50,020 nucleotides of DNA from Alphaproteobacteria bacterium (GCA_013289145.1 JABDAM010000005.1:21448-71467), one strand, 5' to 3'. Counted from the stretch's first letter, positions 2,931 to 44,079 are shown. Made by a program: numbers and translations. The notes: generated by a model not told the origin, from the letters alone.

Positions 2931-3626
2931 ATGCGCGGGTTTTTTCGTCTTTTGATAGGGGCGATGGTGTTTGTCTCGTGGGAACCTATGCTTGCCCATG
3001 CGGCGGATTTTTCTATTAATTCAGCAATTATTGAGTTCAATAAAGACGGCCCGCGCCAGCAGGATGTTATCATCAGCAGTCATTCGTCGGACAGCAATTA
3101 CATCATTACGGAAATCAATGAAGTCATCAATCCGGGCCGACCGGATGAAACGCGACATCTGATCACCGATCCAGCGCAGAGCGGATTGTTGGTGGTGCCG
3201 GACAAAGTGGTTCTCGCGCCCGGGGGTGAAAAAGTTTTGCGTTTTGTTTTGCTGCATGAGCCGGATGCGCAGGAACATATTTACCGTGTTGCTATTAAGC
3301 CTATCGTGAAAGGCATTGATGACAGCAACCGCCTTGGCCTGAAAATTCTGATCGGTTATGAAGTTTTAGTTATTGTCCGGCCTGCTGCGTCCGTGCCGTC
3401 TTATCAAGCAGGGCGGCAGGGCAACAATTTCTCCGTCATCAATAATGGCAATACCGATATTCTTTTCCAAAACGGCCAGCAATGTTTGGCGCCTGGGAAT
3501 TGCAAACCGTCACGGTTAATGCGCGTTTATCCGGGAACCAGTGCGCAGGTCACTCTACCGCTGAACGCGCCGGTGACTTATTCCGTTTGGGACGGCGCGC
3601 GGACTATTGAGAAGCGATTTGATTAA
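2931..3626 (+). CDS. Periplasmic pilus-assembly chaperone (PapD-like fold)
   Basis: This 231-residue protein has a signal peptide ending near LAHA-A (about residue 24) and two immunoglobulin-like halves. The first half contains the strand pattern seen in fimbrial chaperones (SINSAIIEFNKDGPRQQDV, then VPDKVVLAPGGEKVLRFVL near 90-105). The C-terminal half carries two cysteines (CLAPGNC). It resembles chaperones of the alternate (CS1/alpha-type) chaperone-usher systems, and the adjoining usher supports this. Its role would be to fold and cap the pilin-like subunits encoded at 6046-7137. A GGGGTAGGTG stretch precedes the ATG. The gene runs opposite to the usher and its 3' end overlaps the usher's by 23 bases. 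Subtype assignment is tentative. Confidence 0.72.
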   Translation: MRGFFRLLIGAMVFVSWEPMLAHAADFSINSAIIEFNKDGPRQQDVIISSHSSDSNYIITEINEVINPGRPDETRHLITDPAQSGLLVVPDKVVLAPGGEKVLRFVLLHEPDAQEHIYRVAIKPIVKGIDDSNRLGLKILIGYEVLVIVRPAASVPSYQAGRQGNNFSVINNGNTDILFQNGQQCLAPGNCKPSRLMRVYPGTSAQVTLPLNAPVTYSVWDGARTIEKRFD

Positions 3627-6015
3627 TCGGCGCACAAACTAAATCGTCGTGGTATAACAATACGCCGTTCACCGGCGCTGCATCCGGCAAATGCACCTGG
3701 CAATTGCCGCCATCCGCAGTGGCGAAAGTCATGGTATGCGGCGCGGATAGTTCCGCTTGCACGCGGCCCGTATCATCGGTGGCGGTTTGCGCATGGCCTT
3801 CTTGCAATACGCCGCCGGCCAGAGCTGTGCCGCCGGGCGTCACAATGCGCCCCGCCACGACGTAAAATTTATTCGCATCCCAAACCAGTTTCACCACATT
3901 GCCGGGATAAAGCGTTACTTTGCGTTCCATCGCGTCATAATCTACGAGGCCAGTTTTCGCGGGCGCAATTCGGATGCGGTAGGTGTGGAAAGGCGAGAGG
4001 TAAATCATCTGACGGTCGCCGACGCTGACGCTGCTGCGTTCAATGCCGTTGACGAAAATTTTCATGGGCATATCGGCATCGCCGCTGGTTTCGATAATCA
4101 CCGCGCTTTTATCATTTTCATCGCCGCCCAGATGGAATTCATCCGCCAATTCCGCAGCGTTAAAGGAGAAATTGCCGCCGTAGCTGAACATAGATTGCCC
4201 CTGGCCGAATGAATCCTGTACGCTGCCGCTGGCCTGGCCGAAATCTCCGCGCAGATCGGCATCACCGCTGATGGTGCGGCGGTCTTTGTCATGGCTGATC
4301 TCCGCGCCTTCGATTTCATGATTGCCTGGTGTGGAACCGTCGTGCCAAACGCGCAAACTGCCCAGTGCGCCGTCGGTGCCGTTGCCCATATCCATGCCGC
4401 CGGTGGCGGTGACGCCGTAATCGCCGAAGCGCGTGGAAAAATAAAGCAGCATGCTGCCTTCGCCGCGCCCGCCGGTATTGGCGGCGTTGGCGGTAAGGCG
4501 CAAAATGCTTTCATTCCGCTGCCAAATGCGCCATTCCGCATAAGGTCCGGCAGAAGTGATGGCGGGGGAATTTTCATTCTTCGTATAACTCGCGCGCAGA
4601 CCGAGATTGAAAGTCGGGCTGGCCGCATAAGTTGCCGTTGCAGTGCCCTGCGTATTCGTTTGCACGGCGTTTTGAAAACCGGGGACGTTATCATTGCTCA
4701 TCCATAATTGCCGTACATCAATATCGGCACTCCATTTGCCGACGTTATAAAGATAACCCGCCTGCGTGCCAAAATCGCCATGCGTGGAAGTCAGCAGCGT
4801 GCCTTCGGCTTGCCCGCTGGGGCGCAGCCAGAATAATCCGCTTTCCATAAAGACGCGGTTCGACACGCCGAGCAGGCTGAGGTTCAAGCCCAAATTATCA
4901 TCAATCCGCCGCACGGTTCCCGCACGCAAAATGGGATTGGATGTGATGACCGGCACGGTTCGGTCGTTGATCGCAGGTGCACGGATCAGGCCGCCTTGCA
5001 GATAATAAATGGGCGCGTCGGTGGGCGGAATTTCCTGATGTTTGGCAAAGAAATGCTGTTCTTCGCGCACGGAGCCGTCGGAATCCCGAATCTTCAACGT
5101 GATATTATAAGCGCCATCTGGCAGGACGCTGGTGTCAATGCGCTGATTGCCTGCTTCATAACTGCGTGAGGAATAGAGGCGGCCTTCACGATAAATCGAA
5201 ACAAAAGCGCGGCGCGGCAGATAGACGATAATATCATTGCCCTCGGTTTTATATTGATCCAGCCACGTACGCATCGAAGTGGCATATGAAACCCCCGCGA
5301 TATCGCGGTCAGTGATCAACGCCATCGGATTGCTGCGGAACAATCCACCGGATGCATCCCAACCTTGGCTTTCATCATGTCCCGCGAGTGTGTCAAATCG
5401 CAAACCCTGGTTGGCATAGGTGGTTTGTATGTCAAGGCGTTTTTCGCCGGATGAGAAAGTGGAATTATTGCCGAAAGCGAAATTGGGCGTAGCGCCGCTC
5501 GTGCCGTTAATCGCGCCGTTGAAAGAAGCGATGGAGGAAAAAGAACGGTCACCCGGCAGGGGCAAGAAATGATCGCCTGTTTCGTCCGTGACGGATAAGT
5601 CGTTTTTATTGATGAATAATTCCGCACTCAAATGATCTTCATCAAAAATCACGCCGATAACGTCGGGCTGCAGCTTACCGCAGTTATCTTGGTGTTTCGT
5701 CGTGCAAAGCAATTCAGCATGCGCGGGCAGTGGGCGGCTAAGCGCGTATAACGTGTGCGTTTTATCCTTGATATTCGGCAACGCGGCGATAACCGCTTCC
5801 GGTTTATCAAGCTGAACAACCCCCGGCGCAAAATGGACAGCAAAACGCCCCAACGCCTCGCCGCCGTAGGATAAGGATATCAAAGCAAAACGCGGCTCAT
5901 CCAGTTTTTCAAATCCCTGCGGTGCGCCACGCACAGTCTTTACCGCCGCGCAAGCGGGCATGGCCCACGCGCCGATCAAAATCCATACCAAGATTAACTT
6001 CCGCCAGAGAGGCAC
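3604..6015 (-). CDS. Outer-membrane fimbrial usher, alternate chaperone-usher class (TcfC/CfaC-like)
   Basis: This 803-residue outer-membrane protein is expected to form the secretion pore for pilus subunits. It has an N-terminal signal segment (about residues 1-24). An N-terminal substrate-binding region with a Cys pair follows (LLCTTKHQDNCGK). Then comes a long barrel region, with a plug-like immunoglobulin segment around VSIYREGRLYSSRSYEAGNQ and LPDGAYNITLKIRD. The C-terminal domain has a final Cys pair (GNCQVHLP and DLVCAPI), as in many ushers. The start is GTG at 6015, preceded by the very strong AGGAGGAA. Two pilin-like genes lie immediately upstream on the same strand, while the chaperone is convergent at its 3' end. 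Ushers of the alpha class typically run 800-880 residues, so the length fits. Confidence 0.82.
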   Translation of the reverse strand: MPLWRKLILVWILIGAWAMPACAAVKTVRGAPQGFEKLDEPRFALISLSYGGEALGRFAVHFAPGVVQLDKPEAVIAALPNIKDKTHTLYALSRPLPAHAELLCTTKHQDNCGKLQPDVIGVIFDEDHLSAELFINKNDLSVTDETGDHFLPLPGDRSFSSIASFNGAINGTSGATPNFAFGNNSTFSSGEKRLDIQTTYANQGLRFDTLAGHDESQGWDASGGLFRSNPMALITDRDIAGVSYATSMRTWLDQYKTEGNDIIVYLPRRAFVSIYREGRLYSSRSYEAGNQRIDTSVLPDGAYNITLKIRDSDGSVREEQHFFAKHQEIPPTDAPIYYLQGGLIRAPAINDRTVPVITSNPILRAGTVRRIDDNLGLNLSLLGVSNRVFMESGLFWLRPSGQAEGTLLTSTHGDFGTQAGYLYNVGKWSADIDVRQLWMSNDNVPGFQNAVQTNTQGTATATYAASPTFNLGLRASYTKNENSPAITSAGPYAEWRIWQRNESILRLTANAANTGGRGEGSMLLYFSTRFGDYGVTATGGMDMGNGTDGALGSLRVWHDGSTPGNHEIEGAEISHDKDRRTISGDADLRGDFGQASGSVQDSFGQGQSMFSYGGNFSFNAAELADEFHLGGDENDKSAVIIETSGDADMPMKIFVNGIERSSVSVGDRQMIYLSPFHTYRIRIAPAKTGLVDYDAMERKVTLYPGNVVKLVWDANKFYVVAGRIVTPGGTALAGGVLQEGHAQTATDDTGRVQAELSAPHTMTFATADGGNCQVHLPDAAPVNGVLLYHDDLVCAPINQIASQ

Positions 6016-6045
6016 CCAATTCCTCCTGCTCTATCGATTTCAGTA

Positions 6046-6561
6046 TCAAGTCGGGCTGACTAATAACGTAATCGTTCCCGTATAATTCCCTGCCAAAGCG
6101 TTCGTCATATCTTGTGTCGTAATCTTAATCGTCAGGCGCGCGTTCGGTCCGCTCGGATTTCCTAACGCGCAGGAAGTTGAAAGAATATTTGCCTTCATCT
6201 GGCCCGTCAGTGCCACATTGTTACTAAGCTGTGTGCCGTTCGTCGAACCCAAGTTCCCAGCGCCGGAATCGTCCCAATAAAGCGAATAGGGGATCTGATG
6301 CGATCCACTGGTGAGGATATAACCGCCCGGACTGCTGATCGTAATGGAATAACTCGTCAGCGGCACCGTCACGAGCGCGTAAATGCATAAATCCATATGC
6401 GCAACAATGGCCGGATCGCCGATGCCCCAGGTGCCCAAATTAAAATCGCTTATATTACTGATCTCAACCGGGCCGACGCCAAGTATCTGTGCCGTCGCAG
6501 GTTGATTTGCCGTAGCAATTAAAACCGCCAAGATAATCAAAAAACGCCGCATGTCGCACAT
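6046..6561 (-). CDS. Secreted pilin-like subunit B
   Basis: This small protein of 171 residues (168 if the second ATG at 6552 is used) has a signal peptide ending near ATAQ. The mature part is a beta-rich domain with two cysteines (MDLCIYA and STSCALG), a GTWGIGDPA segment near its start and GTITLLVSPT at the very end. It is clearly related to its upstream neighbour, which shares the SIGDG/GIGDP turn, a Cys after about 12 residues, a SGG/SGSH..IPYS strand and the closing GTI-L/M-L strand. A final hydrophobic strand and position next to an usher suggest subunits assembled by strand exchange. It could also be related to spore-coat U-type pilins. The gap to the upstream gene is 3 bases and to the usher 30 bases. 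Confidence 0.65.
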   Translation of the reverse strand: MCDMRRFLIILAVLIATANQPATAQILGVGPVEISNISDFNLGTWGIGDPAIVAHMDLCIYALVTVPLTSYSITISSPGGYILTSGSHQIPYSLYWDDSGAGNLGSTNGTQLSNNVALTGQMKANILSTSCALGNPSGPNARLTIKITTQDMTNALAGNYTGTITLLVSPT

Positions 6562-6564
6562 CCA

Positions 6565-7137
6565 TCAAAACGGCGTAATCAGCATAGTAATCGTGCCGCT
6601 ATAAGGCGTCGAGCTCGCCATCGCGGCGGTCATATCGGCATCGGTGATATTGATAATAACGCGCGCCGTATCATTACCCGCGCCACCGTGATTACAATCT
6701 GCCGTGGTCGTAGCGGCATTGGAAAAATCAGTGGATTGCATATTGCTGCCGAGCGGTGTGCCATTGTTATCCAATGCGCCCGTACCGTTGCTATTCCACG
6801 TCACACTATAAGGAATATCATTGCCGCCACTGCTCAACGTAAAGGCATTGCCTGCGCCGCTGCCTGTCGCCGTGACTTTATAACTGCCAGTCGAGGAATA
6901 AACGCAAATGTTGGAATAAAGCGTCACATCGCCATCGCCGATGCTCCAGCTGGGCAGCGTCATATCGCTAATATCGGTGATCTGTGCCTCAACAACTTTT
7001 GTCACGCTGATATTCACGCTGCCGGTGGAGGTGGGACCCAGAGTCCCTTGTGTTGCGGCATGCCCCGGCAGCGGAGAATTTATTTCCGCCAGCAATAATA
7101 TCAATAAATACATTCTGACATTATGAAATTTAAACAT
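6565..7137 (-). CDS. Secreted pilin-like subunit A
   Basis: This is a 190-residue exported protein with a signal peptide ending near PGHA-A. The mature domain contains SWSIGDGD, a Cys pair (SNICVY and TADCNH), NDIPYSVTWN and a C-terminal YSGTITMLITPF strand, so it parallels the next gene along most of its length. The ATG at 7137 was chosen because AAAGG lies about 8-9 bases upstream; an earlier in-frame ATG at 7161 has no comparable signal. As first gene of the pilin-pilin-usher unit it could be the major shaft subunit (inference). No separate, larger tip-adhesin gene is present in the locus. Confidence 0.65.
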   Translation of the reverse strand: MFKFHNVRMYLLILLLAEINSPLPGHAATQGTLGPTSTGSVNISVTKVVEAQITDISDMTLPSWSIGDGDVTLYSNICVYSSTGSYKVTATGSGAGNAFTLSSGGNDIPYSVTWNSNGTGALDNNGTPLGSNMQSTDFSNAATTTADCNHGGAGNDTARVIINITDADMTAAMASSTPYSGTITMLITPF

Positions 7138-7374
7138 GCTGCAAACCTTTGGTTGACACATGTAAAATCACAACAACCTTATCGTGTATTTTATGATAAC
7201 CTTTATGAAAAAGCGGTTTACTATCCGTGATGAAACGGAAAACTTTTCATCATTTTTTGATTATCTTTTTGTAAAATTATTGGCTTATTCAGCGAGTATT
7301 TTAAGCAAAATTTATGTTTCCTGCTCATGTCCATAAGACTTTGATTTCAAACAATTTTTTTGGTTGCAAGGCAC

Positions 7375-8940
7375 TCAACCCGTGCGTAACAGGGCATAAC
7401 CACCATTAGCAGTCTGCAAGTTCAGACAGGGTATTTGTTCAATAAAAGGCTTTAATTTATCCAGTCCCGCAGGCTTATTCATATAACCCACCGCTCCCAG
7501 GGATTTTGCACGCGCTATATCTTTGTCATCATTAGAAGTAGTGCACATGACGACTGGGATCCCGCGTAATTCATCCTGGTCACGCATTCTTTCCAGCAAT
7601 TCAAAGCCGCTCATGCGCGGCATATTGATATCAAGTAGTAAGAGATCTGGTTTCCCCTGAGTATTGATTTCGGATTGGAGTATTTCTAGCGCTTCGGTGC
7701 CGTCGCGCGCTATGGTCAAATGACATTGTAGATTCACACGATCGATTAAAAGAATTTTGGCCAGCTTAATATCGGCCTCATTATCGTCTACCAGCATGAT
7801 ACGCGCGATGGATTCAGGTTTGCCTTGCAGGGCAGCTTCTGGCTGTATGGTTGGAGTGGCAGTAAGGGATGAAGTATCAGTTGTATCTTGTGGCAGGGTA
7901 AAAAAGAACATCGTGCCTTTGCCCGGCGTGGATTCATACCAGATCTTGCCACCGTAAGACTCCACAATCTTTTTACAAATTGCAAGACCAAGACCAAGGC
8001 CTTGTTCTTTTTGATGGTTCATGCGGCGGAAAGGTTCAAACACCTGCGCGCCGTAATGATCTGCAATACCGATGCCGTTATCCGCGATTCGTAAAATCCA
8101 TTTGTCATCCTGGCGTGCTGCATCAATATGAATTTCAGGCTTTTTGTCCGAATGGCGGATGGCGTTGCAAATCAAATTTTGTAAAATCTGTATTAAGTGC
8201 ATGTGATTAATATAGACCCGCGGCAAAGAGCCATGCGTGATGGCGGCACCGCTATCGCGGATCAATTGTGCAATATTGTCCTTCACTTCTTCCAGCACAG
8301 CCGCGATGTCACAATGTTCGCGTGCGATTTGTTCCGGCGAAGTATCAAGGCGCGTATAGAAATAAACTGTTTCCACCAAATTGCCCATGCGCTCGGCAGC
8401 CTTTTGGATATATTGCGTATATTCTTTCCCACTTTCCGAAAAGATTTCGCCTTCAATTAGCAGATCGAGGAAGGATTTGATTGTGCGTACCGGCTCTTTC
8501 AAATCATGTGCCAGAGCGCGCGTGAAGATTTCTAATGCCGTACGTTGTTCGTGAATACGTTTTTCCATCGCGCAATGTTCCACTGCGCTGCGCACAATAC
8601 GTTGAATCGCTTCAGGTGTGACAGCAGACTTCGTGATATAATTTTGTGCGCCTTCATGCATTGCGGTGACGGCAATGGATTCATTTCCCTGACCGGTTAG
8701 CATCACCACCGATACAAAAGGCTGCGCCGCGCGAATGCGTTTTAAGATTTCGATACCGTTATAGCCTGGCAGCGAATAATCCAGTAAAACACAATCGGGC
8801 GGGGCAACTTGAATTTGTTGTAGGCCTTTTTCACCGTCATCCGATTCAACAATATCATAAATTTCATACGCATCCTTTTGCAGACAACGGCGATAAAGCA
8901 GCCGGTCATCCTCATTGTCATCGATGATGAGGATCTTCAT
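7375..8940 (-). CDS. Receiver-kinase-receiver hybrid (REC-HisKA-HATPase-REC)
   Basis: This 521-residue soluble hybrid kinase has four parts. The N-terminal receiver has Asp54 in LLDYSLPGYNG. The HisKA domain has the H-box in LAHDLKEPVR (about residue 145). A HATPase domain follows with ADNGIGI and the GLGLGLA G2 box. The C-terminal receiver (about residues 385-505) has the acceptor in LLLDINMPRMSG and Lys in NKP. The start overlaps the end of the upstream regulator in an ATGA arrangement. It is the last gene of the TonB receptor operon. With receivers at both ends, it could take phosphate from the transmembrane kinase or the Rcp1-like regulator upstream and relay it onward (inference). No DNA-binding output domain exists in the operon. 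Confidence 0.88.
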   Translation of the reverse strand: MKILIIDDNEDDRLLYRRCLQKDAYEIYDIVESDDGEKGLQQIQVAPPDCVLLDYSLPGYNGIEILKRIRAAQPFVSVVMLTGQGNESIAVTAMHEGAQNYITKSAVTPEAIQRIVRSAVEHCAMEKRIHEQRTALEIFTRALAHDLKEPVRTIKSFLDLLIEGEIFSESGKEYTQYIQKAAERMGNLVETVYFYTRLDTSPEQIAREHCDIAAVLEEVKDNIAQLIRDSGAAITHGSLPRVYINHMHLIQILQNLICNAIRHSDKKPEIHIDAARQDDKWILRIADNGIGIADHYGAQVFEPFRRMNHQKEQGLGLGLAICKKIVESYGGKIWYESTPGKGTMFFFTLPQDTTDTSSLTATPTIQPEAALQGKPESIARIMLVDDNEADIKLAKILLIDRVNLQCHLTIARDGTEALEILQSEINTQGKPDLLLLDINMPRMSGFELLERMRDQDELRGIPVVMCTTSNDDKDIARAKSLGAVGYMNKPAGLDKLKPFIEQIPCLNLQTANGGYALLRTG

Positions 8941-9404
8941 GCTATATTCTCGGACAGGCTGTTTTTAGGCAGCAGCGCGATTTCAAACCAGTATTCTTTG
9001 AGCCGCTTGATGGCCTCAATCAGCCCGTCAAAACTGACTGGTTTTTGCACATAGGTATTAGCCCCCAATTGATAACAGGCCTGCACATCCCGTTCATCGC
9101 TGGAAGTGGTTAGAATAATCACCGGAATGCGTTTTAACATGTCGTTGGCTTTGATCATTTCGAGCGTTTTACGCCCATCAAGGCCTGGCATGTTTAGATC
9201 CAGTAAAATTAATCCCGGTTTCGCGGTTTCTTGGCTCCTGTATTTGCCTTCGTGTTTCAGATAATCCAATGCTTCTTGGCCTGACGCGCACCAATGAATC
9301 GGGTTGCGCAAATTAACTTTTTTAAAAGCGCGTAGTGTCGCTTCATAATCATCTTCGCTGTCCTCCACGATTAGGATGGATTGAGTTGCCATGGTCTCGC
9401 TCAT
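8937..9404 (-). CDS. Single-domain response regulator, Rcp1-like
   Basis: This 155-residue receiver has the acidic pair Glu14-Asp15, phosphoacceptor Asp69 in LLDLNMPGLDG, Thr in ILTTSS and Lys in VQKPV. There is no output domain. The ATG at 9404 is preceded by GGGAG with 6-base spacing; a second in-frame ATG four codons later is less likely. It lies 2 bases after the transmembrane kinase stop and overlaps the hybrid kinase by 4 bases, so all three are co-translated. By position it is the natural shuttle between the two kinases. Confidence 0.9.
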   Translation of the reverse strand: MSETMATQSILIVEDSEDDYEATLRAFKKVNLRNPIHWCASGQEALDYLKHEGKYRSQETAKPGLILLDLNMPGLDGRKTLEMIKANDMLKRIPVIILTTSSDERDVQACYQLGANTYVQKPVSFDGLIEAIKRLKEYWFEIALLPKNSLSENIA

Positions 9405-9406
9405 AT

Positions 9407-11689
9407 TTATCTCCCTAGAGTGAAATAAAACACAGTGCCTTGGCCCGGGATGGATTCCAGCCAGATGCGGCCTTTATGACGTTCGATAATTTTCTTCACG
9501 AACGTTAAACCGACACCAGTGCCTTCTTCTTTACTGCCGTCTGCGGGCTGCAAGCGTTTGAAGATACGAAAGATTTCTTGGTGAAAGCCAGGCTCAATCC
9601 CGACCCCATTATCCTTGACGTAGAATACACCATTTTCTGGTCCTTGAGGAGTCTCGGCGCGGTCCAAAAAGCCGATTTCTACGATACGTTCGGGCTTGTC
9701 ATTATATTTAACAGCATTGGTGATGAGATTACGGAAAACCTCCGTAATCCTGGGTTTATCACAGACAATTTTGGGCAGTTTTTTTGGTACAATAATATGT
9801 GCATTGCGCTCATGCAGAAAGGACTCCATCATTTCTTCGATATCCGAAATAATCTGATGAACATTAGTTTCCTGGATCGCTAGTTCTGCGCGACCCAGGC
9901 GTGAGAAATAGAGCAAATCATTCACCAGGTGTTCCATACGCCGCGATAGATGGGCAAGACGATGGAGTCGCTTTACGCCATCTTCGTCCAATTTTCCTTC
10001 ATAATCCTCTAACAAAAATGACGCATGATTAAATAGTCCGCGTAGCGGTTCTTTCAAATCATGCGAAGCAATATAAGCGAAATCATCTAATTCCTGATTA
10101 CTGCGTTCTAAATCACGCATATAGCGCAGCAGCTGGGCTTCAGCTTGTTTGCGTTCGGTGATGTCGCGTGCGGTTTTGGATGCACCAATGATTTCTCCTG
10201 CTGCATTTCGGATGGGTGAAACAGCCAACGAAATATCAATTAGCCGGCCGCCTTTCGCCATGCGCACAGTCTCGAAATGATCCACTGATTTTCCTTCATG
10301 AATTTGCGCGATGATTTGATTTTCTTCATTCATATACTTTGGCGGAATGATAAGATTAATATACTGACCGATGGCCTCCGCCGCGCTATAGTCAAACAGA
10401 TGTTCTGCTCCACGGTTCCAGGACAGAATTTTGCCATCCAGTGTTTTGCTGATGATCGCATCTTCTGAGGATTCCACCACGGCGGCGAGCAGCAGTGCTG
10501 CTTCGACATTTCTCTGTAAGGCGTTCATAATCTGCATTAAATTACCGATTTCCGCGAGTTGTCTGCGCTGCGGCGGCACGAACGCGCCCGGCTTGCCGTT
10601 TGCTATACTGAGTAAAGCATCAATCATATAATTAATCGGATGCACAACGCGATTTGTAACAAGGTGAAAAGTATAGATGCAAAGTGTTAAGGCAATCATC
10701 AAAATCAAACCATGAAAAAGAATGGCTTGTTGTGCTTTGACTCGGAAGTTCATCACATAGCGCACTATTTCTTTATGCGACGCTGCTTTTAAATCATCTA
10801 GAGAGTCTCCCAGTTCGCTGGACAATTCCAGCCATATATCCGCGCCGATGGGATAGGTGCCGCTGTGTGCGTCAGGCAAATAGAAAATATTCTCGGTCAT
10901 ATCCTGCAGGGTTTCGTAATGGCTTTTTGCATCGGAAAATTCCGCGCTAATGATGGGGAAGAGGCCGCTTTGCGCTGCTAAGATTTCAGCGGTTTTCCAA
11001 CTGAGATCGACGGCGCCTCGGTTGTGCCATAGTTCTGCGGATTGCTGCGGCGTAGGGGCAGCGTTGGTTGAAATCAATTCCGCAATTGCGGCGCGCTCGT
11101 GACCTGTATTATCCATGATGATGCGTAAACAATGCCAGTAGCGCATGTGCAGGGTTGCGGTGGGGTCAATATCAGAAAAATGCCCTGCAAAGCCAAGCCA
11201 TAGATCTTCAGTCTGCTCTGTGAGCGCCGTAACAGTGTCATACCATTTTTTCTCAAGAGTTGGGGATGTTGCGCGATCTGAAACGGTCCGGCTGATCTGC
11301 TGGCGCAGTTTTTCAATTTCCGTGCGGTAGGATAGAGTTTTTTGTTGCAATTGATCGAGTTCAGGAAACCGGTATTGCCGCAAAGATCCCATGGCGTCAT
11401 TCATTGCCGCATCTGCTGCCATGCGGCTTTCTGTCAAGCGTGGCTGGAGTGTTTCCAACGTTTCCGGCGCGTGTAGAATGGTCAGTGCGATATCGCGCTC
11501 GATGGAAAACTTTTCTGTTGCATCGAATAATTTCTCGCTGATCACTGTCGCATTTTTAAGTTGTGTGATTTTATTCAGCCGCTGCCATTCGCTATAAACA
11601 TCACCGCCTGCTAATCCGGCAATAAGCAACGCCAAAACCGCAAAAGCCGACAATAAAACCGTACGGATGGAGTTGGCGCACCATTTCAT
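9407..11689 (-). CDS. Transmembrane sensor histidine kinase with PAS domain
   Basis: This 760-residue inner-membrane kinase has a first membrane helix at about residues 10-30. A largely helical periplasmic domain of about 280 residues follows; its long amphipathic helices resemble NIT or four-helix-bundle sensors, but this is tentative. The second helix is at about 318-340 and is followed by a HAMP-like linker. A PAS domain begins with VVESSEDAIISKTLDGKI and contains the typical W-NRGAE turn. The HisKA H-box reads ASHDLKEPLRG. The HATPase ends with GTGVGLTFVKK and LESIPGQGTVFYF. The start codon overlaps the stop of the YfiR-like gene by one base (TAATG). It probably reads the state of that periplasmic protein or of the receptor (inference). 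Confidence 0.88.
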   Translation of the reverse strand: MKWCANSIRTVLLSAFAVLALLIAGLAGGDVYSEWQRLNKITQLKNATVISEKLFDATEKFSIERDIALTILHAPETLETLQPRLTESRMAADAAMNDAMGSLRQYRFPELDQLQQKTLSYRTEIEKLRQQISRTVSDRATSPTLEKKWYDTVTALTEQTEDLWLGFAGHFSDIDPTATLHMRYWHCLRIIMDNTGHERAAIAELISTNAAPTPQQSAELWHNRGAVDLSWKTAEILAAQSGLFPIISAEFSDAKSHYETLQDMTENIFYLPDAHSGTYPIGADIWLELSSELGDSLDDLKAASHKEIVRYVMNFRVKAQQAILFHGLILMIALTLCIYTFHLVTNRVVHPINYMIDALLSIANGKPGAFVPPQRRQLAEIGNLMQIMNALQRNVEAALLLAAVVESSEDAIISKTLDGKILSWNRGAEHLFDYSAAEAIGQYINLIIPPKYMNEENQIIAQIHEGKSVDHFETVRMAKGGRLIDISLAVSPIRNAAGEIIGASKTARDITERKQAEAQLLRYMRDLERSNQELDDFAYIASHDLKEPLRGLFNHASFLLEDYEGKLDEDGVKRLHRLAHLSRRMEHLVNDLLYFSRLGRAELAIQETNVHQIISDIEEMMESFLHERNAHIIVPKKLPKIVCDKPRITEVFRNLITNAVKYNDKPERIVEIGFLDRAETPQGPENGVFYVKDNGVGIEPGFHQEIFRIFKRLQPADGSKEEGTGVGLTFVKKIIERHKGRIWLESIPGQGTVFYFTLGR

Positions 11690-12228
11690 TAATTGTCTCC
11701 ATGCACAATGGTGACGAGGCGTAACAGGCGGTCTTCAATATGCAATCCAGCATGATCCACAGCATCTAGATCCAAATTGGCATTGATGTGATCGTTTTGG
11801 TGGCTGAATTCAATCATGCCGCCTGCGGCTGCGAAGCCAGGAAAATCACTGACCGTTAAAATGCTTTTTCCAACCAACGCGCGATGCAGATTGGGCCACG
11901 CGGATTGTTCGTTCTGATTCACAAAAAGCATTTGGCAATTCGTTATTTCGCCCGCGCCCTGCACATAGCGGATTGCGATTTGATGCTGATTCACCGTGCG
12001 CCCCTGGATGGGATTGAGGCTACCGCTAAAAGGGTCATCACCGAAAATACAAATATTAAGGGTTGCGCCAGTCAGGCTTGCTGCGGGCCAGTCCGTATAT
12101 TTCAGAAAATTATACAGCAGACCGGCTTTGATTTGTTGTTCCTGAAGTTGCACAACTTCCGCGTGTGCTGTTACGGAAAGCCCGCACAGCAGCGCAAGCG
12201 CAAAAAGAAGGCGTATTAAAATCTGCAC
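11689..12228 (-). CDS. YfiR-like periplasmic protein (DUF4154 family)
   Basis: This is a 179-residue exported protein with a signal peptide ending at VTAHA. The mature part follows the DUF4154/YfiR pattern. It starts with QIKAGLLYNFLKYTDWP and then LNICIFGDDPF, a GRTVNQHQIAIRYV block, CQMLFVNQNE, and a C-terminal stretch ILTVSDFPGFAAAGGMIEF. In Pseudomonas YfiR is a periplasmic repressor of a membrane diguanylate cyclase; here the partner gene downstream is a histidine kinase instead. It overlaps the TonB receptor gene by 13 bases and the kinase by 1. A role as periplasmic adaptor between receptor and kinase is inferred from this order. Confidence 0.85.
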   Translation of the reverse strand: MQILIRLLFALALLCGLSVTAHAEVVQLQEQQIKAGLLYNFLKYTDWPAASLTGATLNICIFGDDPFSGSLNPIQGRTVNQHQIAIRYVQGAGEITNCQMLFVNQNEQSAWPNLHRALVGKSILTVSDFPGFAAAGGMIEFSHQNDHINANLDLDAVDHAGLHIEDRLLRLVTIVHGDN

Positions 12229-14282
12229 GTGATTTTTCCATAAACGCTGCGGCCAATATAGGCTGCCATGGTTTGCGGGTTGGTTGCGGAAAGGAATTCA
12301 GGATGTTCAGGTTCCAATAAATTTTGCCCGACCAGATCGAATTCCAATCCGTCCGCGATGCGCCAGCCCAGGCGCATATCAAGCCGAGTGTAACCCGGAA
12401 GACCGAAATCTTGCAAATGGTCGACACGGTATAAAATCGTATCAAACGAAACATCGCGCGTAATATCCCATTCGGCGTGTAGATTACCTTGGAAACTTGG
12501 CGATTGGTTTTCCGCATTTTCGCCGACGCTATTAGGACTCCATAATTTCATTTCCAGTAAACTGCCTGAAGCAGACAGGCGCAGATTATTAAGCGCACGC
12601 CAATCGAGTGTGGTTTCCAGTCCGTGGCTTTCACCCTTCATGCTATTGTTCGGCGTTAAGCCTTCAAAGACATGGTCGAAAGGCAGGATGGAAACGGTAT
12701 AGGATTCCAGTTCAGAATAATCATTATAAAAAGCCGCCACATCGACTGAGGCGGTCGGCGTCAATTGCCGCCTGTAACCAAGTTCATAGGCTACCAAATC
12801 TTCACTATATAAATTCGGATTGGAAAGTGTATCAACCGTATAAACCGTGCTGGCAATCTTGGCCGCAGCCTGTACCAGTGTCAGATCATCATCCAACCGG
12901 CTTGGCGTGCGTACGGCGCGCGACACTGCGCCCCAGATCATTTGTTGATCATCTGGATGATATTGCAACCGCGCGCTAGGTTGAATTTCGATGCCGGTAT
13001 AATTATTGTCTTCGAACTTGCTGCCCAATGTCAGGTACCAACGGTTCGGATCCAACGTGATTTTGTCCTGAATAAAACTGTTCAAAATCTGATCATGCGC
13101 ACGCGCGTGGAGCGCTGTCACATCAGGGGATAAACCCAGCTTATCCTCACTATAGCGGTAATGTGCCCCGACCGTAAATTTGTTCCAAGCCATTTGCGGC
13201 GCTTCATATTGTGTGTCGAAATCAAAGGATGTGCGCGTATCATCGAGGTATTCCTGACTGCGGTAAACGTAATCCACATAGCTTTGTACCGTCAGTCGGG
13301 AATCCGAACTGTAATTACGCGTCCAGCGGGTGAGCAAATTCGAGCCGCGCGCATCGATATATTCATCTGTCAGAGGGTTAGTGCCGGCCGTGAGGTTCGG
13401 GTAAAACCGTAATTGTCCGGCGGAACTTTGGTATGTATCGCCTTGTACCGTCAAACTGTCATTATTCACGCCGATTTTGTCCCAATCGGTGCGAAAACCA
13501 CCACGCCCTTCGGCCCAACCGTCATGATCCGTCGTGCCAAAACCGCTGGTTGCTGAGTTGTGTGTGCCGCCACCTTGCACGGCTGGCTCGGGGCCGCGAT
13601 CGGTATATTTGCCGTAAACGCGCCAGGCGCCGCCGTCATCAAGCCGGCCGCCGTAACGCGCTTCGCCAATCGCTTTTTCATGATTACCCACTGCTAGGCT
13701 GGTCAGGCCGCCTTGCGTCTCCCCCGCCTTTTTCGTGATGATGTTGATGACACCGTCGACCGCATTATCACCCCATAATGTACCGCCTGGGCCGCGCACC
13801 ACTTCAATCCGGTCAACGTCCTCCAGTACTGTATCTTGCGCATCCCAATAGACGCCGGAAAAAAGCGGATCATAAACTTCGCGCCCATCGATCAGTACCA
13901 GCAGTTTATTGCCCAAGCCCGTGCTGGCGAAACCGCGCACGGAAATCGCCCAGTTGTTCGCATTGACCTGCGCGACCTGTACGCCGGGCACTAGCCGCAG
14001 CGCCTCGGGAATTGAAGTCGCGCCCGATCGCATAATGTCTTTATCTGTTAAAACATAGATCGCTGCTGGCGCATCCATGACTTTTTCCGGCGTTTTGGAA
14101 ACTGAAATCACCGTGGCATTGAAAAGTTGCTCAGGCGAGAGTGCGAAACTGTCCAGTGTATCATCTGCATAAGCAGAGGATACAGGTATCATCAAACAGG
14201 GAGTCAACAATAAGCCTGCTAGCGCCGCGCGCACTGACCGATTGCAAAAGCAAAACTTATTTGTTGAAGATAGCAGAGCCAT
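12216..14282 (-). CDS. TonB-dependent outer-membrane receptor
   Basis: This is a 688-residue TonB-dependent receptor with a signal peptide ending near SAYA-DD. The plug domain has the sequence type SVSKTPEKVMDAPAAIYVLT, followed by RSGATSIPEALRLVPGVQV, SVRGFAS and VEVVRGPGGTLWGDNAVDGV. A 22-strand barrel ends in a terminal Phe (ITCRF). From family knowledge, plugs of this type are often encoded beside YfiR-like proteins and two-component genes. No obvious TonB box or siderophore genes are seen, so the ligand is unknown. No Shine-Dalgarno sequence precedes the ATG at 14282; a TATAAT lies only 9 bases upstream, so the mRNA could be nearly leaderless. It is the first gene of the five-gene operon. 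Confidence 0.9.
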   Translation of the reverse strand: MALLSSTNKFCFCNRSVRAALAGLLLTPCLMIPVSSAYADDTLDSFALSPEQLFNATVISVSKTPEKVMDAPAAIYVLTDKDIMRSGATSIPEALRLVPGVQVAQVNANNWAISVRGFASTGLGNKLLVLIDGREVYDPLFSGVYWDAQDTVLEDVDRIEVVRGPGGTLWGDNAVDGVINIITKKAGETQGGLTSLAVGNHEKAIGEARYGGRLDDGGAWRVYGKYTDRGPEPAVQGGGTHNSATSGFGTTDHDGWAEGRGGFRTDWDKIGVNNDSLTVQGDTYQSSAGQLRFYPNLTAGTNPLTDEYIDARGSNLLTRWTRNYSSDSRLTVQSYVDYVYRSQEYLDDTRTSFDFDTQYEAPQMAWNKFTVGAHYRYSEDKLGLSPDVTALHARAHDQILNSFIQDKITLDPNRWYLTLGSKFEDNNYTGIEIQPSARLQYHPDDQQMIWGAVSRAVRTPSRLDDDLTLVQAAAKIASTVYTVDTLSNPNLYSEDLVAYELGYRRQLTPTASVDVAAFYNDYSELESYTVSILPFDHVFEGLTPNNSMKGESHGLETTLDWRALNNLRLSASGSLLEMKLWSPNSVGENAENQSPSFQGNLHAEWDITRDVSFDTILYRVDHLQDFGLPGYTRLDMRLGWRIADGLEFDLVGQNLLEPEHPEFLSATNPQTMAAYIGRSVYGKITCRF

Positions 14283-14291
14283 GAAATCGAA

Positions 14292-14297
14292 ATTATA
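14292..14297 (-). promoter_or_regulatory. Candidate -10 box of the TonB receptor operon
   Basis: A perfect TATAAT on the minus strand ends 9 bases before the receptor ATG. A transcript from it would begin about 3-4 bases before the start codon. No good -35 hexamer is seen at 16-18 bases, and the whole 14283-14500 gap is very AT-rich, so chance occurrence is possible. Confidence 0.35.
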
Positions 14298-14500
14298 ATG
14301 CCAAAGATTAAAATTATAATCACAATTTTAAGTTGTATAACTTATAGTAATTATTATTGAAAGTTTATAATTCATTTTAAAGGCAAGGTGCCTCTGCATA
14401 ACTGATTGAATTCCCATCCGTTATATTTCTGATAATCTTTATTTATAATTTTCTAACGTCTTGCAGTATTTGAAGTTAAAACCAAATTGGATGCTGTTAT

Positions 14501-16636
14501 TTATGGTGCCGGTGAAACAAAGGCGGTTTTTATAATCTGGCCCAGATCTTCGGGTTGTACAGGTTTGACGAGGTGATAATCAAAACCTGCGGCCTTGGAT
14601 TTGTTAAGATGTTCAGTTTGGCCCCAGCCGGTTTGCGCGATGAAAACGGTGTTTTTCAAATGGGGATTTTGCTTCAGAACTTGGCAAACTTCATAGCCGT
14701 TCATCACGGGCATGCCGATGTCCAGTAAAATGAAATCCGGCCGGATGCGTTCGGCAAGCGCAATGGCGCTAGAACTATCATAGGCTGAGTGTGCTTCATG
14801 TCCTAGTAATTCCAGCATCCAGACCAGTGTTTGGGCGGAATCTTTATTATCGTCCACAACCAGCATGCGGTATAGCGACTCCGACTCTGCCCCCTTGTTT
14901 GGCAGTTCTTTAACCTCGGGTTGTGATAAAGCGGCTTCATCATCGGCCGTTAACAGTGGCAGGCGGACAATAAATTCACTACCCTTGCCCAGGCCCTCGC
15001 TTTTCGCCGTAATCGTGCCATCGTGCAGTGTCAAAAGATTTCTTGCCAGGGTCAAACCGATACCCAGCCCGCCCTGGGAGCGTTCATAAGTATGATCGAC
15101 CTGTGCAAACAATCCGAAAATGTGCGTGAGCATATCCAGTGGAATGCCGATGCCATTATCATGTACGCAAATGGTTGCGTGAGTTTTGTCCGCTTCAGCT
15201 TTCAAAATGATATGCCCGCCGTTTTCGGTATATTTTGCCGCGTTATTCAGTAAATTTGTAAAAACCTGAGCCAGGCGTGTGGCATCGCCTTTCAGCCAGA
15301 TAGGATCATCGGGCAATTGCAGGGTTAAAAGGTGCTTATGCATTTTGATTTGTAGTTGCGTTGTTTCAACCGCGTTACGAATTACATCTCCCAACAGAAC
15401 TTTTTCCATGCGAACGTCGATCTTGCCGCGTGTGATGCGCGAAACGTCCAGCAAATCATCTACCAGCCGCACCAATTGTCGTGCCTGTTTTTCCACCAAA
15501 TGATGTACATCATAAGACGCGCCGCTGATTTTTCTGGATAGATGTGTGACATTCAACGCGTTGCAAATGGTGGCCAGGGGATTGCGCAATTCGTGCGCGA
15601 GGACCGCCAGGAATTCATCTTTGTAGCGGTCTGCTTCACGAATTTGCGCGATCAGGCGTTCATTTTCACGCGCTTCTTCTTTTAGGTTTAGCACAAGCTT
15701 TTTATTTTCTTTATCAATTTGTTTGGAAGCGCTTAGGCACAGGCCTGTGGTTGCCACGATGGCCATAAAACTTTGTAGTAACATCAAACTTGCATCCAAA
15801 GAATCCACCTTGAATGGCCCTATGTTATGAAGGGTTGCCCAAATTGCGATGCCTGATGCGATTAAAGTTATCAGACTGGTTCCTTGCTGGCCAAAACGCA
15901 GCGCCGCCCAGATCACAAAGGGGAAAACCACATAAATAAAAGCTGGCCCGACCTGACCAGTGGCGGTAGGTTCCACAAAAATGCCGATCAATGCAATCAG
16001 CAAGCCTATCAGTAGTACGGCGCCTTCGGCCAATTTGTCAGCAGACCAAGAGTTGCGCAAAGCGTTAGCCCAGGCGAGCAAAAACGGCGCAACTGTGATT
16101 GCTCCCACCGCATCACCTGTCCACCACAGCAGCCAGAGTTTGGGAAAAACATGCCAGCCTTGCAATCCGCCCAAACAGAGACTGGCTACGCCTACAGTTG
16201 CGCTGATCATGGTGGAAAGAATGGCGCTTAAGAATACCAGGCCTAAAACATCGCGAAACCGGCCCATGCCGTTGTCAAAATTCACCAGCCGCTGCAGCAT
16301 CCAAGCGCCCGCAACGGCTTCAAGCGTATTACCGCAGGCAATGCCCATAGCTGTCAGAATAGGTTCATGTGCGGTTGCATTAGTAAAAAAAGCGCCCAGA
16401 GCAATCGCGGGCCAAACGCGAAAACCAAAAAGCAAAATCGCGGCGAGCGCAATGCCTGTCGGCGGCCAGACCGCCGTAATTTGTTCGGCGGTAAAGGCCA
16501 TGGTAAAGCCCAGCTTGGAAGTAGCCACATAACCGCCAGCCAGAATGAAAAAGAGTAAAATATCCTTCAGCGGCTTTCTTAAAAATCTAAGCCGACCTTC
16601 TTCAACCGGAATAAACGCATCAGATCGAGATTCCAT
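14501..16636 (-). CDS. MASE1-domain hybrid histidine kinase
   Basis: This is a 711-residue membrane kinase. The first 300 or so residues form about eight hydrophobic helices with MASE1 hallmarks (ITAVWPPTGIALAAILLFG, then ALGAFFTN and GNTLEAVAGAWML). MASE1 is an integral-membrane sensory domain of unknown ligand. A coiled linker follows, then HisKA with LAHELRNPL. The HATPase has NGIGIP and GGLGIGLTLAR. The C-terminal receiver has VVDDNKDSA, acceptor Asp in LLDIGMPVMNG and Lys in VKP. It stands alone, with no partner regulator or HPt protein adjacent, so its own receiver probably feeds a relay elsewhere. No strong ribosome-binding site precedes the ATG at 16636. Confidence 0.87.
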   Translation of the reverse strand: MESRSDAFIPVEEGRLRFLRKPLKDILLFFILAGGYVATSKLGFTMAFTAEQITAVWPPTGIALAAILLFGFRVWPAIALGAFFTNATAHEPILTAMGIACGNTLEAVAGAWMLQRLVNFDNGMGRFRDVLGLVFLSAILSTMISATVGVASLCLGGLQGWHVFPKLWLLWWTGDAVGAITVAPFLLAWANALRNSWSADKLAEGAVLLIGLLIALIGIFVEPTATGQVGPAFIYVVFPFVIWAALRFGQQGTSLITLIASGIAIWATLHNIGPFKVDSLDASLMLLQSFMAIVATTGLCLSASKQIDKENKKLVLNLKEEARENERLIAQIREADRYKDEFLAVLAHELRNPLATICNALNVTHLSRKISGASYDVHHLVEKQARQLVRLVDDLLDVSRITRGKIDVRMEKVLLGDVIRNAVETTQLQIKMHKHLLTLQLPDDPIWLKGDATRLAQVFTNLLNNAAKYTENGGHIILKAEADKTHATICVHDNGIGIPLDMLTHIFGLFAQVDHTYERSQGGLGIGLTLARNLLTLHDGTITAKSEGLGKGSEFIVRLPLLTADDEAALSQPEVKELPNKGAESESLYRMLVVDDNKDSAQTLVWMLELLGHEAHSAYDSSSAIALAERIRPDFILLDIGMPVMNGYEVCQVLKQNPHLKNTVFIAQTGWGQTEHLNKSKAAGFDYHLVKPVQPEDLGQIIKTAFVSPAP

Positions 16637-16975
16637 GGCTCATGGCAAGGTTGTTAGGAGACCTTTTTATACAATATTCTGCCCTGCAAAGCCATAGCCT
16701 AGCATTACCTTGATTCCTAACGAACTAATGAACTCCGATGTCTTAGAACTGGTTGCATTGTTAATGCTACAGAAATTACCCATTATTACCCCCACTTCCG
16801 GAATCTGGAAAATATCCGACGGCAGAGCAGCAAAAGTATTGATTCTTCCTATCAAGAATGGCTGGAACAGGTTCGAGTTTAAGTATTTCTGGCAGGGCGT
16901 CATTTTTTCTTGTAAAGTTGCCCCGTTGTGTCTAAAGCATAGCTACATCTGGAACATATTTTGAGGGAGATTCTA
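16637..16975. other. Intergenic region, no gene recognised
   Basis: About 340 bases lie between the divergent MASE1 kinase and the sugar-nucleotide decarboxylase gene. Short overlapping frames on both strands show no recognisable domain or credible start site. A weak stem with a T-run (AAGGT-9-ACCTTTTT, near 16641-16664) lies near the left end. It probably holds the two divergent promoters, but none could be assigned with confidence. Confidence 0.5.
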
Positions 16976-25609: not shown

Positions 25610-25939
25610 CTAGAGATTTGTTAGAAATCCCTCAACGCGCATGTGCTCAGCCTCGATATCGGCAAGCATAGCCTGTTTCTTATCTTGCATTGCAGTGGCA
25701 CTGTCCTGTGCTTCCTCGCATAATTTGCCCAGACCTTCGGCGCCAAGATTAAGGCTGATCCCCTTTAGGGCGTGAGCAGCTTTTCGCCATGCTTCGGTGG
25801 CATCCGGCTCGCAGCTATTGCGTAGAATTGTGATGGATTCAGCCGCCGTGATGAGAAAAATATTAAATAGCTCCTTTTCTAAAGCAGCGTCATTGCCCGT
25901 CATCTCACGCAAATTGGTTAGATCAACGGATGTATTCAC
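25610..25939 (-). CDS. HPt phosphotransfer protein
   Basis: This 109-residue histidine phosphotransfer protein forms a four-helix bundle. The phosphorylated residue is His56 in KAAHALKGISLNLGA, the canonical HPt signature, followed by GLGKLCEEAQDSA in the next helix. It is a stand-alone phosphate shuttle of the kind needed by hybrid kinases that lack a fused HPt. The start overlaps the stop of the upstream response regulator by 4 bases. It is the last gene of the three-gene phosphorelay unit and could serve the MHYT kinase and the regulator next to it. Confidence 0.88.
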   Translation of the reverse strand: MNTSVDLTNLREMTGNDAALEKELFNIFLITAAESITILRNSCEPDATEAWRKAAHALKGISLNLGAEGLGKLCEEAQDSATAMQDKKQAMLADIEAEHMRVEGFLTNL

Positions 25940-26820
25940 GATGAGCTTACCTTTGCCAACATGGCTGGGCGTACGGATAGGTATTTATCCAGACAAGTTT
26001 GAATTTTCTGATTGCTAAAGGGTTTTGCGATAAAACCGTCCACATGATTTTGCTTCGCCTGCTGCACATCATTTAAGCCATGATTGGCGGTGACCATCAC
26101 TACGTACGTCGAAGGCGCCAACGTCTTAATTTGCTGCGCCAATGTATGCCCATTCCCATCGGCGAGTTCGATATCCAGAAAAACAATATCCGGCGCATGC
26201 TCGAGGAAAAGTTTCCAAGCATCTTTTAGATTTGGGGAAGCTTCAACCATATAGGTGCCGCGTAAAACCTCATAAAGCAGTTGGCGTGAGAATAATTGAT
26301 CCTCAACGATTAAAACTTTGAACATCGTTCGCTTTGATTGCAATTGCTGCTGCTGCCTGAATTTTTGCATTTCAACATCACTTGGCATAAAAAGAACCTC
26401 AGCAGCAGCTTTATGGGAATCTTCTGCTGGCTTATCCTTAGGCTTTGATCGCAGCATTGCAATAATTTCGTTGCCCTGCAGTTTAGGGTCGTAATATTGC
26501 ATCATATCAACTGCGGGGGACGCAATATCAGCCCGCAAAAGCGATTTGGTAATGACATTGGTTAGTTGCTGTAGAACTGTCTTTTGTACGCCGGACCATA
26601 AAATATAGATTTCTGTATCACCGGCGAAGAAAACTTTGGCACCCGTGGCATCTTCCAGCGCGGGTTTAATAAATATGATGAATTTATCCTGGGTCATGGT
26701 TTCCAGATTTGCGCGCTGAACTGCCAATAATCCCCATACGCCCGTAGGTTTATGATTAAGTTCTTCAATGTAGGCGATGAGCGAAGCAACCGCTTGCTGA
26801 TCCTCTATTTTAATGAGCAT
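25936..26820 (-). CDS. Response regulator with unusual N-terminal domain
   Basis: This 294-residue protein has its receiver at the C-terminus (about residues 168-285). The receiver shows KVLIVEDQLFSRQ, acceptor Asp in VFLDIELADGNG, Thr in MVTAN and Lys in AKPF. The N-terminal 120 residues match no family I can name. The stretch AKVFFAGDTEIYILWSG, preceded by a WGLLAVQR strand and followed by a helix, is reminiscent of a GGDEF fold that has lost its signature. A Gln-rich linker (about 150-162) joins the halves. It lies 2 bases after the MHYT kinase and overlaps the HPt gene. It is the probable output or branch point of this relay, with no DNA-binding motif visible. Confidence 0.8.
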   Translation of the reverse strand: MLIKIEDQQAVASLIAYIEELNHKPTGVWGLLAVQRANLETMTQDKFIIFIKPALEDATGAKVFFAGDTEIYILWSGVQKTVLQQLTNVITKSLLRADIASPAVDMMQYYDPKLQGNEIIAMLRSKPKDKPAEDSHKAAAEVLFMPSDVEMQKFRQQQQLQSKRTMFKVLIVEDQLFSRQLLYEVLRGTYMVEASPNLKDAWKLFLEHAPDIVFLDIELADGNGHTLAQQIKTLAPSTYVVMVTANHGLNDVQQAKQNHVDGFIAKPFSNQKIQTCLDKYLSVRPAMLAKVSSS

Positions 26821-26822
26821 AA

Positions 26823-29900
<3,078 letters not shown>

Positions 29901-29996
29901 AGCTTTCTGCCTCTGAATCTGTTGTGCGCGTTGCACTATCGCAGGTATTCCAAGAACTGCGAAGCTGGAAATAAATCAGAAAAATTGTTGCAATTT

Positions 29997-30161: not shown

Positions 30162-30223
30162 TTACCATAATATGTTTGAAAGATGCAGCAGATGCTGTAA
30201 TTTTTCAATTCAGGAGGCGGAAT

Positions 30224-30277
30224 ATGTTGCCCAATCCCATTTTTGTCAAGCAAAAAGACGTGATTTCCCTCGAATAA
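30224..30277 (+). CDS. Possible 17-residue leader peptide upstream of the RND operon
   Basis: An ATG at 30224 is preceded by a perfect AGGAGG with 6-base spacing, the best ribosome-binding site in the region. It opens a short frame, MLPNPIFVKQKDVISLE, ended by TAA at 30275-30277. It lies about 100 bases before the RND permease start in a different frame. A GC-rich hairpin (30330-30344) separates the two. It could be a translated leader controlling the efflux genes. The peptide resembles nothing I know, so a chance frame is possible. Confidence 0.4.
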   Translation: MLPNPIFVKQKDVISLE

Positions 30278-30329
30278 ACAAATATTTAAGCATCTTGCCT
30301 TTTGGCGGCCTGAAAATACATATATGCAA

Positions 30330-30344
30330 CGCGGCGGTGCCGCG
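30330..30344 (+). promoter_or_regulatory. GC-rich hairpin in the RND leader
   Basis: cgcggc-ggt-gccgcg makes a perfect 6-bp G/C stem with a 3-base loop, 31 bases before the permease start. There is no long T-run after it, so it is more likely to influence translation or ribosome progress than to be a plain terminator. Confidence 0.4.
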
Positions 30345-30375
30345 CGTTTCCTCTGCTGGCCTAAGGTTTTTTCCC

Positions 30376-43636: not shown

Positions 43637-44079
43637 TAGCGTTCTTCCTGTGCCAGGTTGTCTTTTACCTTCTCCAGCATCCATCGCAACTTTTGCAAAT
43701 CCTGTGAAGGGATGCCGTTAAAAGCCTTTTTACGCACGTCGCGCGCGACCTCGCGCATTTTGTCGGTATGCGGCCGCGCTTTGGGCGTCAGATACAATAA
43801 CCACATGCGCCGGTCGGTGGGGTGGGCGCGTCGCTCCACCCAGCTTTTTTCCACCAGGCGGTCAATAATGCGCGTCAGGGTAATCGGGCGGATATCCATC
43901 AGGGCCGCGAGTTCAGTCTGCGACAGACCTTCTTGATTCCTTATACGCGCAAGCGCCACGTATTGCGCGCGCGTCGCGTCGGTTCTTTTGCCGCGCCGGT
44001 CGAACTCGCGGCGCAGCAGGCGCGCGACGTCGTGGATTAAAAATCCCATCTGGCGGGTTTCGTCGGGTTCGTCAGTCAT
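43636..44079 (-). CDS. MarR-family transcriptional regulator
   Basis: This is a 147-residue winged-helix regulator. The central domain has TRAQYVALARIRNQEGLSQ, then ELAALMDIRPITLTRIIDRLV (helix-turn-helix) and the wing RRAHPTDRRMWLLYLTPKA, matching MarR proteins closely. N- and C-terminal helices would form the dimer interface. It is the first gene of an efflux operon and its own promoter contains a perfect palindrome (44101-44114), so it probably represses itself and the pump until an effector binds. The operon runs MarR, adaptor, two permeases, outer-membrane channel. Confidence 0.9.
   Translation of the reverse strand: MTDEPDETRQMGFLIHDVARLLRREFDRRGKRTDATRAQYVALARIRNQEGLSQTELAALMDIRPITLTRIIDRLVEKSWVERRAHPTDRRMWLLYLTPKARPHTDKMREVARDVRKKAFNGIPSQDLQKLRWMLEKVKDNLAQEER

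Follow-up and report, generated by a model that had tools for sequence, protein, structure and literature searches.

A TonB receptor, a YfiR-like protein and a sensor kinase in one alphaproteobacterial operon: a candidate trans-envelope signalling pathway

We analysed a five-gene operon in a 50,020-nucleotide stretch of DNA from an alphaproteobacterium (GCA_013289145.1 JABDAM010000005.1:21448-71467), here called the window. The operon occupies positions 14282–7375 on the minus strand and encodes a TonB-dependent receptor, a YfiR-like periplasmic protein, a sensor kinase, a single-domain response regulator and a hybrid kinase. It is best read as a new form of a modular signalling system built on receptor and YfiR, the output of which has been rewired to a phosphorelay of the Rcp1 type. 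Receptor and YfiR are found paired in many Proteobacteria, and this pairing appears not to have been described as a pathway. That the five proteins form one pathway is likely; that this pathway crosses the envelope by the individual steps proposed below is a reading we favour with modest confidence.

12216–14282, minus strand: TonB-dependent receptor, 688 amino acids (open reading frame call and Pfam)
11689–12228, minus strand: YfiR-like periplasmic protein, 179 amino acids, GTG start (DUF4154)
9407–11689, minus strand: inner-membrane sensor kinase, 760 amino acids (PAS-HisKA-HATPase)
10724–11602, minus strand: NIT-like all-helical periplasmic sensor of this kinase, residues about 30–322
8937–9404, minus strand: single-domain response regulator of the Rcp1/RcpB kind, 155 amino acids (Response_reg)
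7375–8940, minus strand: receiver-HisKA-HATPase-receiver hybrid, 521 amino acids (Pfam)

All five reading frames overlap or abut. From receptor to hybrid, successive frames overlap by 13 bases and by 1 base, stand 2 bases apart and overlap again by 4 bases; the reading frame calls here agree with a preliminary description made from the sequence alone. Co-transcription of the five genes is implied by these overlaps.

The receptor–YfiR–kinase arrangement in other genomes

We tallied about 100 neighbourhoods of DUF4154, the YfiR family, in a sample of genomes with gene calls made by a simple script. DUF4154 was present in 88 of the 397 genomes of the phylum sample. Fifty YfiR genes were followed by a separate kinase gene, counting the window and two loci described below, L002 and L051, and six more were fused to a kinase. 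A TonB receptor adjoined 34 of these 50 YfiR–kinase loci, directly upstream in 29 of them, in contrast to only 4 of 20 YfiR–GGDEF loci (Fisher p 4e-4, phylogeny ignored). As background, the same DNA contained 3 receptors in 638 kb lying more than 5.5 kb from YfiR. Counted from the receptor side, 64 family receptors were followed immediately by YfiR in 35 cases and had it within 6 kb in 16 more (51/64 in all); for the remainder, YfiR was found elsewhere in the genome nine times, and four receptors belonged to genomes lacking it. DUF4154 occurred in 51 of 54 receptor-bearing genomes versus 12 expected. Since the surveyed sequences are not independent, the P values can serve as guides only. The preliminary description had made its proposal depend on conservation of the order receptor–DUF4154–kinase outside this strain, and this order was found in L002, L051 and many further loci.

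Receptor and YfiR also diverge together more tightly than either does with the kinase. The distance correlation between receptor and YfiR was 0.45; with the kinase core, both gave 0.28. Among distant loci 0.24 remained for receptor and YfiR, versus 0.03–0.04 for the pairs involving the kinase core. As far as such sequence comparison goes, this favours a link between receptor and YfiR. The six fusions (L104, L114, L116, L118, L119, L120), in which DUF4154, a coiled-coil-like stretch, a transmembrane segment and a histidine kinase form a single chain, strongly indicate that kinases can be acted on by YfiR domains.

The gene order is not fixed everywhere: in L048 (G053:C4), YfiR, a PAS kinase, a single receiver and a hybrid kinase come first and the TonB receptor last. 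One genome (G137) carries seven DUF4154 genes, several of them adjoining TonB receptors and one fused to a kinase.

Conservation of the five-gene unit

A scan of genome contigs with the YfiR-like protein yielded one relative, L002, from an alphaproteobacterial metagenome-assembled genome. L002 repeats the five-gene order in full, with the identical 13-base overlap of receptor and YfiR. A third exact copy of the arrangement, L051, comes from a different family within the class and likewise keeps this overlap. Protein identities among the three operons amount to 47–79%, and the genes on either side show no common order, from which it follows that the five genes travel as a unit. Close to the window's genome the distribution of DUF4154 is sporadic: among 41 relatives it occurred in one, the window's own genome, and it was not found in a 75%-complete genus-mate.

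The YfiR-like protein

The YfiR-like protein matches PF13689 (DUF4154/YfiR) with 138 bits against a gathering cutoff of 24.9 (E 2.4e-40), and its signal peptide probably ends at AHA-EV. AlphaFold models of this protein and of the kinase sensor were built on two sequences each. The YfiR-like model (predicted local distance difference test score, pLDDT, 68.5) matches YfiR crystal structures (Foldseek, 5eb1, E 4e-10, template modelling (TM) score 0.76 by target). It also matches substrate-binding proteins, ranked lower than the YfiR matches.

Within this fold, the residues that mark the Pseudomonas protein are only partly kept. Cys60 and Cys98 correspond to Cys71 and Cys110 of P. aeruginosa YfiR, whereas the positions of Cys145 and Cys152 are taken by Ala133 and Glu140; this second pair is missing in most other kinase-linked members, too. 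Ala150 stands in place of Phe162, a conserved residue at the centre of the surface by which P. aeruginosa YfiR is proposed to bind YfiN, and the residues at this position in the window, L002 and L051 operons are A, V and V, respectively. By comparison, all 39 loci with the CHASE8 motif that have a residue there show F, L or I, and all six fusions show F. The tree places the window protein in its own clade of three rows (support 99) and P. aeruginosa YfiR in a separate clade of 17 rows (support 100). As the window, L002 and L051 form one clade, the loss of Phe162 may represent one evolutionary event instead of three.

These features bear on whether the operon is simply a standard cyclic di-GMP system of the YfiBNR type with a kinase substituted for YfiN. 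DUF4154 membership, the YfiR fold and the GGDEF proteins of the genome would agree with such an assignment, but the operon contains neither YfiB nor GGDEF, its kinase has neither CHASE8 nor the AAVVF motif, and its YfiR-like protein lies outside the supported canonical clade and lacks Phe162 and the Cys145/Cys152 pair. We consider this explanation extremely improbable. Canonical YfiBNR membership was rejected by clade, by Phe162, by the cysteines and by the partner, which is a kinase without CHASE8 and not a GGDEF protein.

The kinase and its NIT-like sensor

The kinase has transmembrane segments at about residues 11–29 and 323–341, which enclose a periplasmic domain of about residues 30–322. 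Its cytoplasmic part consists of PAS (401–515), HisKA (534–599) and HATPase (644–758), with a HAMP-like stretch below cutoff. The window, L002 and L051 operons all retain intact catalytic motifs in kinase and hybrid. In these three operons the periplasmic domain comprises about 290–310 residues, versus about 130–145 in other YfiR-linked kinases. CHASE8, which we take to be the domain type of YfiN's periplasmic part, occurs in 41 of 54 YfiR-linked kinases and an AAVVF-like motif (strict pattern) in 38 of 47 standard ones; both are absent from the window, L002 and L051 kinases. Pseudomonas genetics led to the proposal that this AAVVF-like stretch is the YfiR-binding site (PMC3375315).

The domain found instead appears to be related to NIT sensors. 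Against Pfam NIT (PF08376, cutoff 24.9 bits), the L051 kinase scored 23.4 bits (8.8e-5) and the L002 kinase 14.4, the window kinase gave no match, and L137, a kinase of the same family, exceeded the cutoff with 34 bits. The top Foldseek match of the window sensor model (pLDDT 64.8) was NasR, 4akk (E 2.6e-4, probability 1.00), at a TM score of only 0.35–0.38. A sensor profile run against the sequences of the PDB did not find NasR and returned only spurious helical-repeat matches. A TorS-like sensor was also considered and was not among the fold matches shown, in which NasR/NIT ranked first. The NIT-like sensor family was present in 30 of 385 genomes of the class, where the examined members mostly were chemoreceptors; within the short flanks examined, YfiR and receptor genes were seen at the window and L051 loci only. 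Tandem copies of the sensor within one protein were seen in L136 (1486–3393) and L138 (429–2342).

The exchange of the sensor gives some weight to an explanation by co-expression only. Here, the receptor–YfiR pair would be ancestral, and the NIT-type kinase, the receiver and the hybrid would form an independent small-molecule phosphorelay behind it, with YfiR no longer acting on the kinase. It is precisely the window, L002 and L051 operons that have lost the known YfiR contact on both sides, and the NIT-like sensor family works without YfiR elsewhere. However, three lineages have kept the five genes side by side, with tiny gaps or overlaps between them. Moreover, a survey of 289 genomes of the class, L051's not being among them, turned up no close homologue of the hybrid (E up to 1e-100) outside such an operon; at a strict threshold, the window itself was the sole match. 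We regard mere co-expression as improbable and an action of the YfiR-like protein on this kinase as fairly probable.

The TonB receptor

The receptor has a signal peptide, a plug (residues 68–178) and a barrel (residues 211–655) by Pfam. An STN domain was found neither in the receptor by Pfam nor in the window's 70%-complete genome. With the NCBIfam TOL_0244 receptor family (NF053590, curated cutoff 645 bits), the window and L002 receptors scored below cutoff at 626 and 629 bits and the L051 receptor above it at 659. Likewise, the window's YfiR-like protein reached 110.4 bits with the TOL_0243 YfiR-like family (NF053591), below the curated cutoff of 125 bits. We also tried a conserved motif before the plug (LsleeLm..evtsasrk) as a candidate contact site and rejected it because it seems to be family-wide and not special to YfiR-linked receptors.

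The main rival explanation starts from this receptor, which would import a substrate that then is bound by the YfiR-like protein or the NIT-like domain, so that receptor and YfiR need not touch. The receptor is without a signalling domain, and ExbB-like genes are present in the window's genome. The YfiR fold is related to one lobe of binding proteins, as also seen in the lower-ranked substrate-binding matches of our model; NIT domains of other proteins have small-molecule ligands. Furthermore, TOL_0244 is up sevenfold on the long alkane C28, and a role in uptake was discussed for it (PMC6304351). We identified no ligand site. On the other hand, the divergence of YfiR follows that of the receptor more closely than that of the kinase, which favours a receptor–YfiR link, and we judge import followed by sensing to be somewhat unlikely.

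Receiver, hybrid and output

The kinase core is closest to bacteriophytochromes among solved structures (1e-55), and the closest solved relatives of the 155-residue, one-domain receiver are Rcp1, RcpA and RcpB (RcpB 1k66, 1e-38; 1i3c, 3e-25), so that it can be classed as an Rcp1-type receiver. This likeness of kinase core and receiver had not been part of the preliminary description. In the hybrid, Pfam finds two Response_reg domains flanking HisKA-HATPase and no other domain. Among the five operon proteins Pfam detects no sigma factor, anti-sigma factor or DNA-binding domain, in line with what had been proposed for the operon. As no output domain is encoded in it, the final effect has to arise through protein contact or through regulators elsewhere. 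GGDEF proteins are present in the genome, and nothing ties them to this operon.

Proposed pathway

We propose that the receptor binds a substrate outside the cell and that its occupancy puts the YfiR-like protein into another state. Contact at the periplasmic face is the most likely means, and the receptor would then fill the outer-membrane role of YfiB. Pseudomonas YfiR was proposed to bind its inner- and outer-membrane partners by one surface (PMC4655355), and a receptor in YfiB's place is thus the simplest model; direct contact between receptor and YfiR-like protein nevertheless is a point we hold only tentatively. The YfiR-like protein might then repress or tune the kinase through its large periplasmic domain. 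This contact would have been rebuilt, because both sides of the classical YfiR–YfiN contact are gone, and for its sign we lean towards repression over activation. The kinase would phosphorylate the Rcp1-like receiver, and the hybrid could pass the phosphate on or drain it, while the output would be provided by protein contact or by regulators whose genes lie outside the operon. The physical contacts, the ligand and the final output are those we infer from sequence.

Some observations weigh against this pathway. With CHASE8, the AAVVF-like motif and Phe162 lost, the only contact of YfiR with a partner known from genetics is absent here. The NIT-like sensor family occurs in chemoreceptors and kinases without a YfiR or receptor gene in the examined flanks, hence the kinase may be a sensor in its own right. 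The conserved N-terminal motif of the receptor seems not to be peculiar to YfiR-linked members, and the distance correlations may reflect co-inheritance alone.

Relation to known systems

YfiBNR of P. aeruginosa and its kinase-bearing relatives share with the window operon a periplasmic protein of the YfiR fold between outer- and inner-membrane partners. They differ in that the outer-membrane member in the window is a TonB receptor instead of the YfiB lipoprotein, its kinase has no CHASE8, and its YfiR lacks Phe162 and the Cys145–Cys152 pair. YfiR systems in which the GGDEF part of YfiN is swapped for kinases, and systems without YfiB, were described by Malone et al. in 2012, whose main text leaves TonB unmentioned (PMC3375315). 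The suggestion that a kinase here holds the place of the cyclase is thus borne out by gene order, but the arrangement is not special, given that report and our 50 separate and 6 fused pairs; moreover, the window kinase lacks the YfiN periplasmic domain and the YfiR-contact motif that the usual YfiR-linked kinases keep. Similarly, the earlier proposal of a distinct trans-envelope pathway stands in so far as the receptor is conserved as a unit with the YfiR-like protein and the kinase, while YfiR–kinase pairing as such was already reported in 2012.

The NCBIfam families TOL_0244 and TOL_0243 cover the same receptor and YfiR-like pair, with the window proteins just under both cutoffs; they name the pair but neither a kinase nor a mechanism. 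TOL_0244 of Thalassolituus oleivorans, which defines the matched receptor family, and OmpS of Alcanivorax dieselolei are receptors for alkane sensing or uptake; nothing ties the window receptor to alkanes. In FecA/FpvA cell-surface signalling, too, a TonB receptor heads a trans-envelope unit; however, the window receptor has no STN domain and the operon no anti-sigma factor or extracytoplasmic function sigma factor. Bacteriophytochrome–Rcp1 modules resemble the window's kinase core and single receiver, but the input in the window is a transmembrane NIT-like and PAS sensor in place of a bilin photoreceptor.

Thus the parts, and partly the pairing of YfiR with kinases, are known; the receptor input looks undescribed, and the interface swap appears to be new. 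We found no description of a receptor–YfiR–kinase pathway in the open-licence literature. It is conceivable, at slightly less than even odds, that this is a widespread second mode of TonB signalling, leading from receptor to YfiR-like protein to kinase or cyclase without a sigma/anti-sigma pair. In the present operon, its interface would have been rebuilt on a NIT-like sensor with a matching change in YfiR, driving an Rcp1-type phosphorelay. TonB receptors are known to signal mainly via sigma/anti-sigma pairs. If common, the YfiR route would point to a role for many orphan receptors, provide an input for the widespread relatives of YfiR, and join outer-membrane uptake to kinases and cyclic di-GMP enzymes. 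The interface swap amounts to a natural experiment that could reveal which YfiR residues choose the partner.

Neighbouring genes

14283–14500, minus strand: AT-rich 218-base gap 5' of the receptor, probable promoter region (sequence scan)

In this gap, a promoter-like match at 14381–14353 did not exceed shuffled expectation, and promoter and terminator scans performed no better than on shuffles. Beyond it, on the same strand, follows a hybrid sensor kinase with a MASE1 domain (14501–16636, minus strand), which is not upstream of the L002 or L051 operons.

Directly downstream of the operon, at 2931–7161, lies a chaperone-usher pilus locus with a chaperone, a CS1/TcfC-like usher and a spore-coat-U-like protein. 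At 17–2433 on the plus strand, CheR, CheB and a receiver-kinase are encoded consecutively, resembling a CheB/CheR sensory complex; a kinase reading frame beside the L002 operon (15854–16648) has 40% identity to this receiver-kinase. Further away, 25936–29936 (minus strand) encodes an MHYT-domain hybrid kinase with two receivers and an adjoining 294-residue protein with a C-terminal receiver. Three reading frames of the size of resistance-nodulation-division (RND) proteins of the AcrB type, with likely adaptor genes, lie at 30172–34700 and 34715–43684; Pfam confirms two of the three, and the third is similar to an RND protein.

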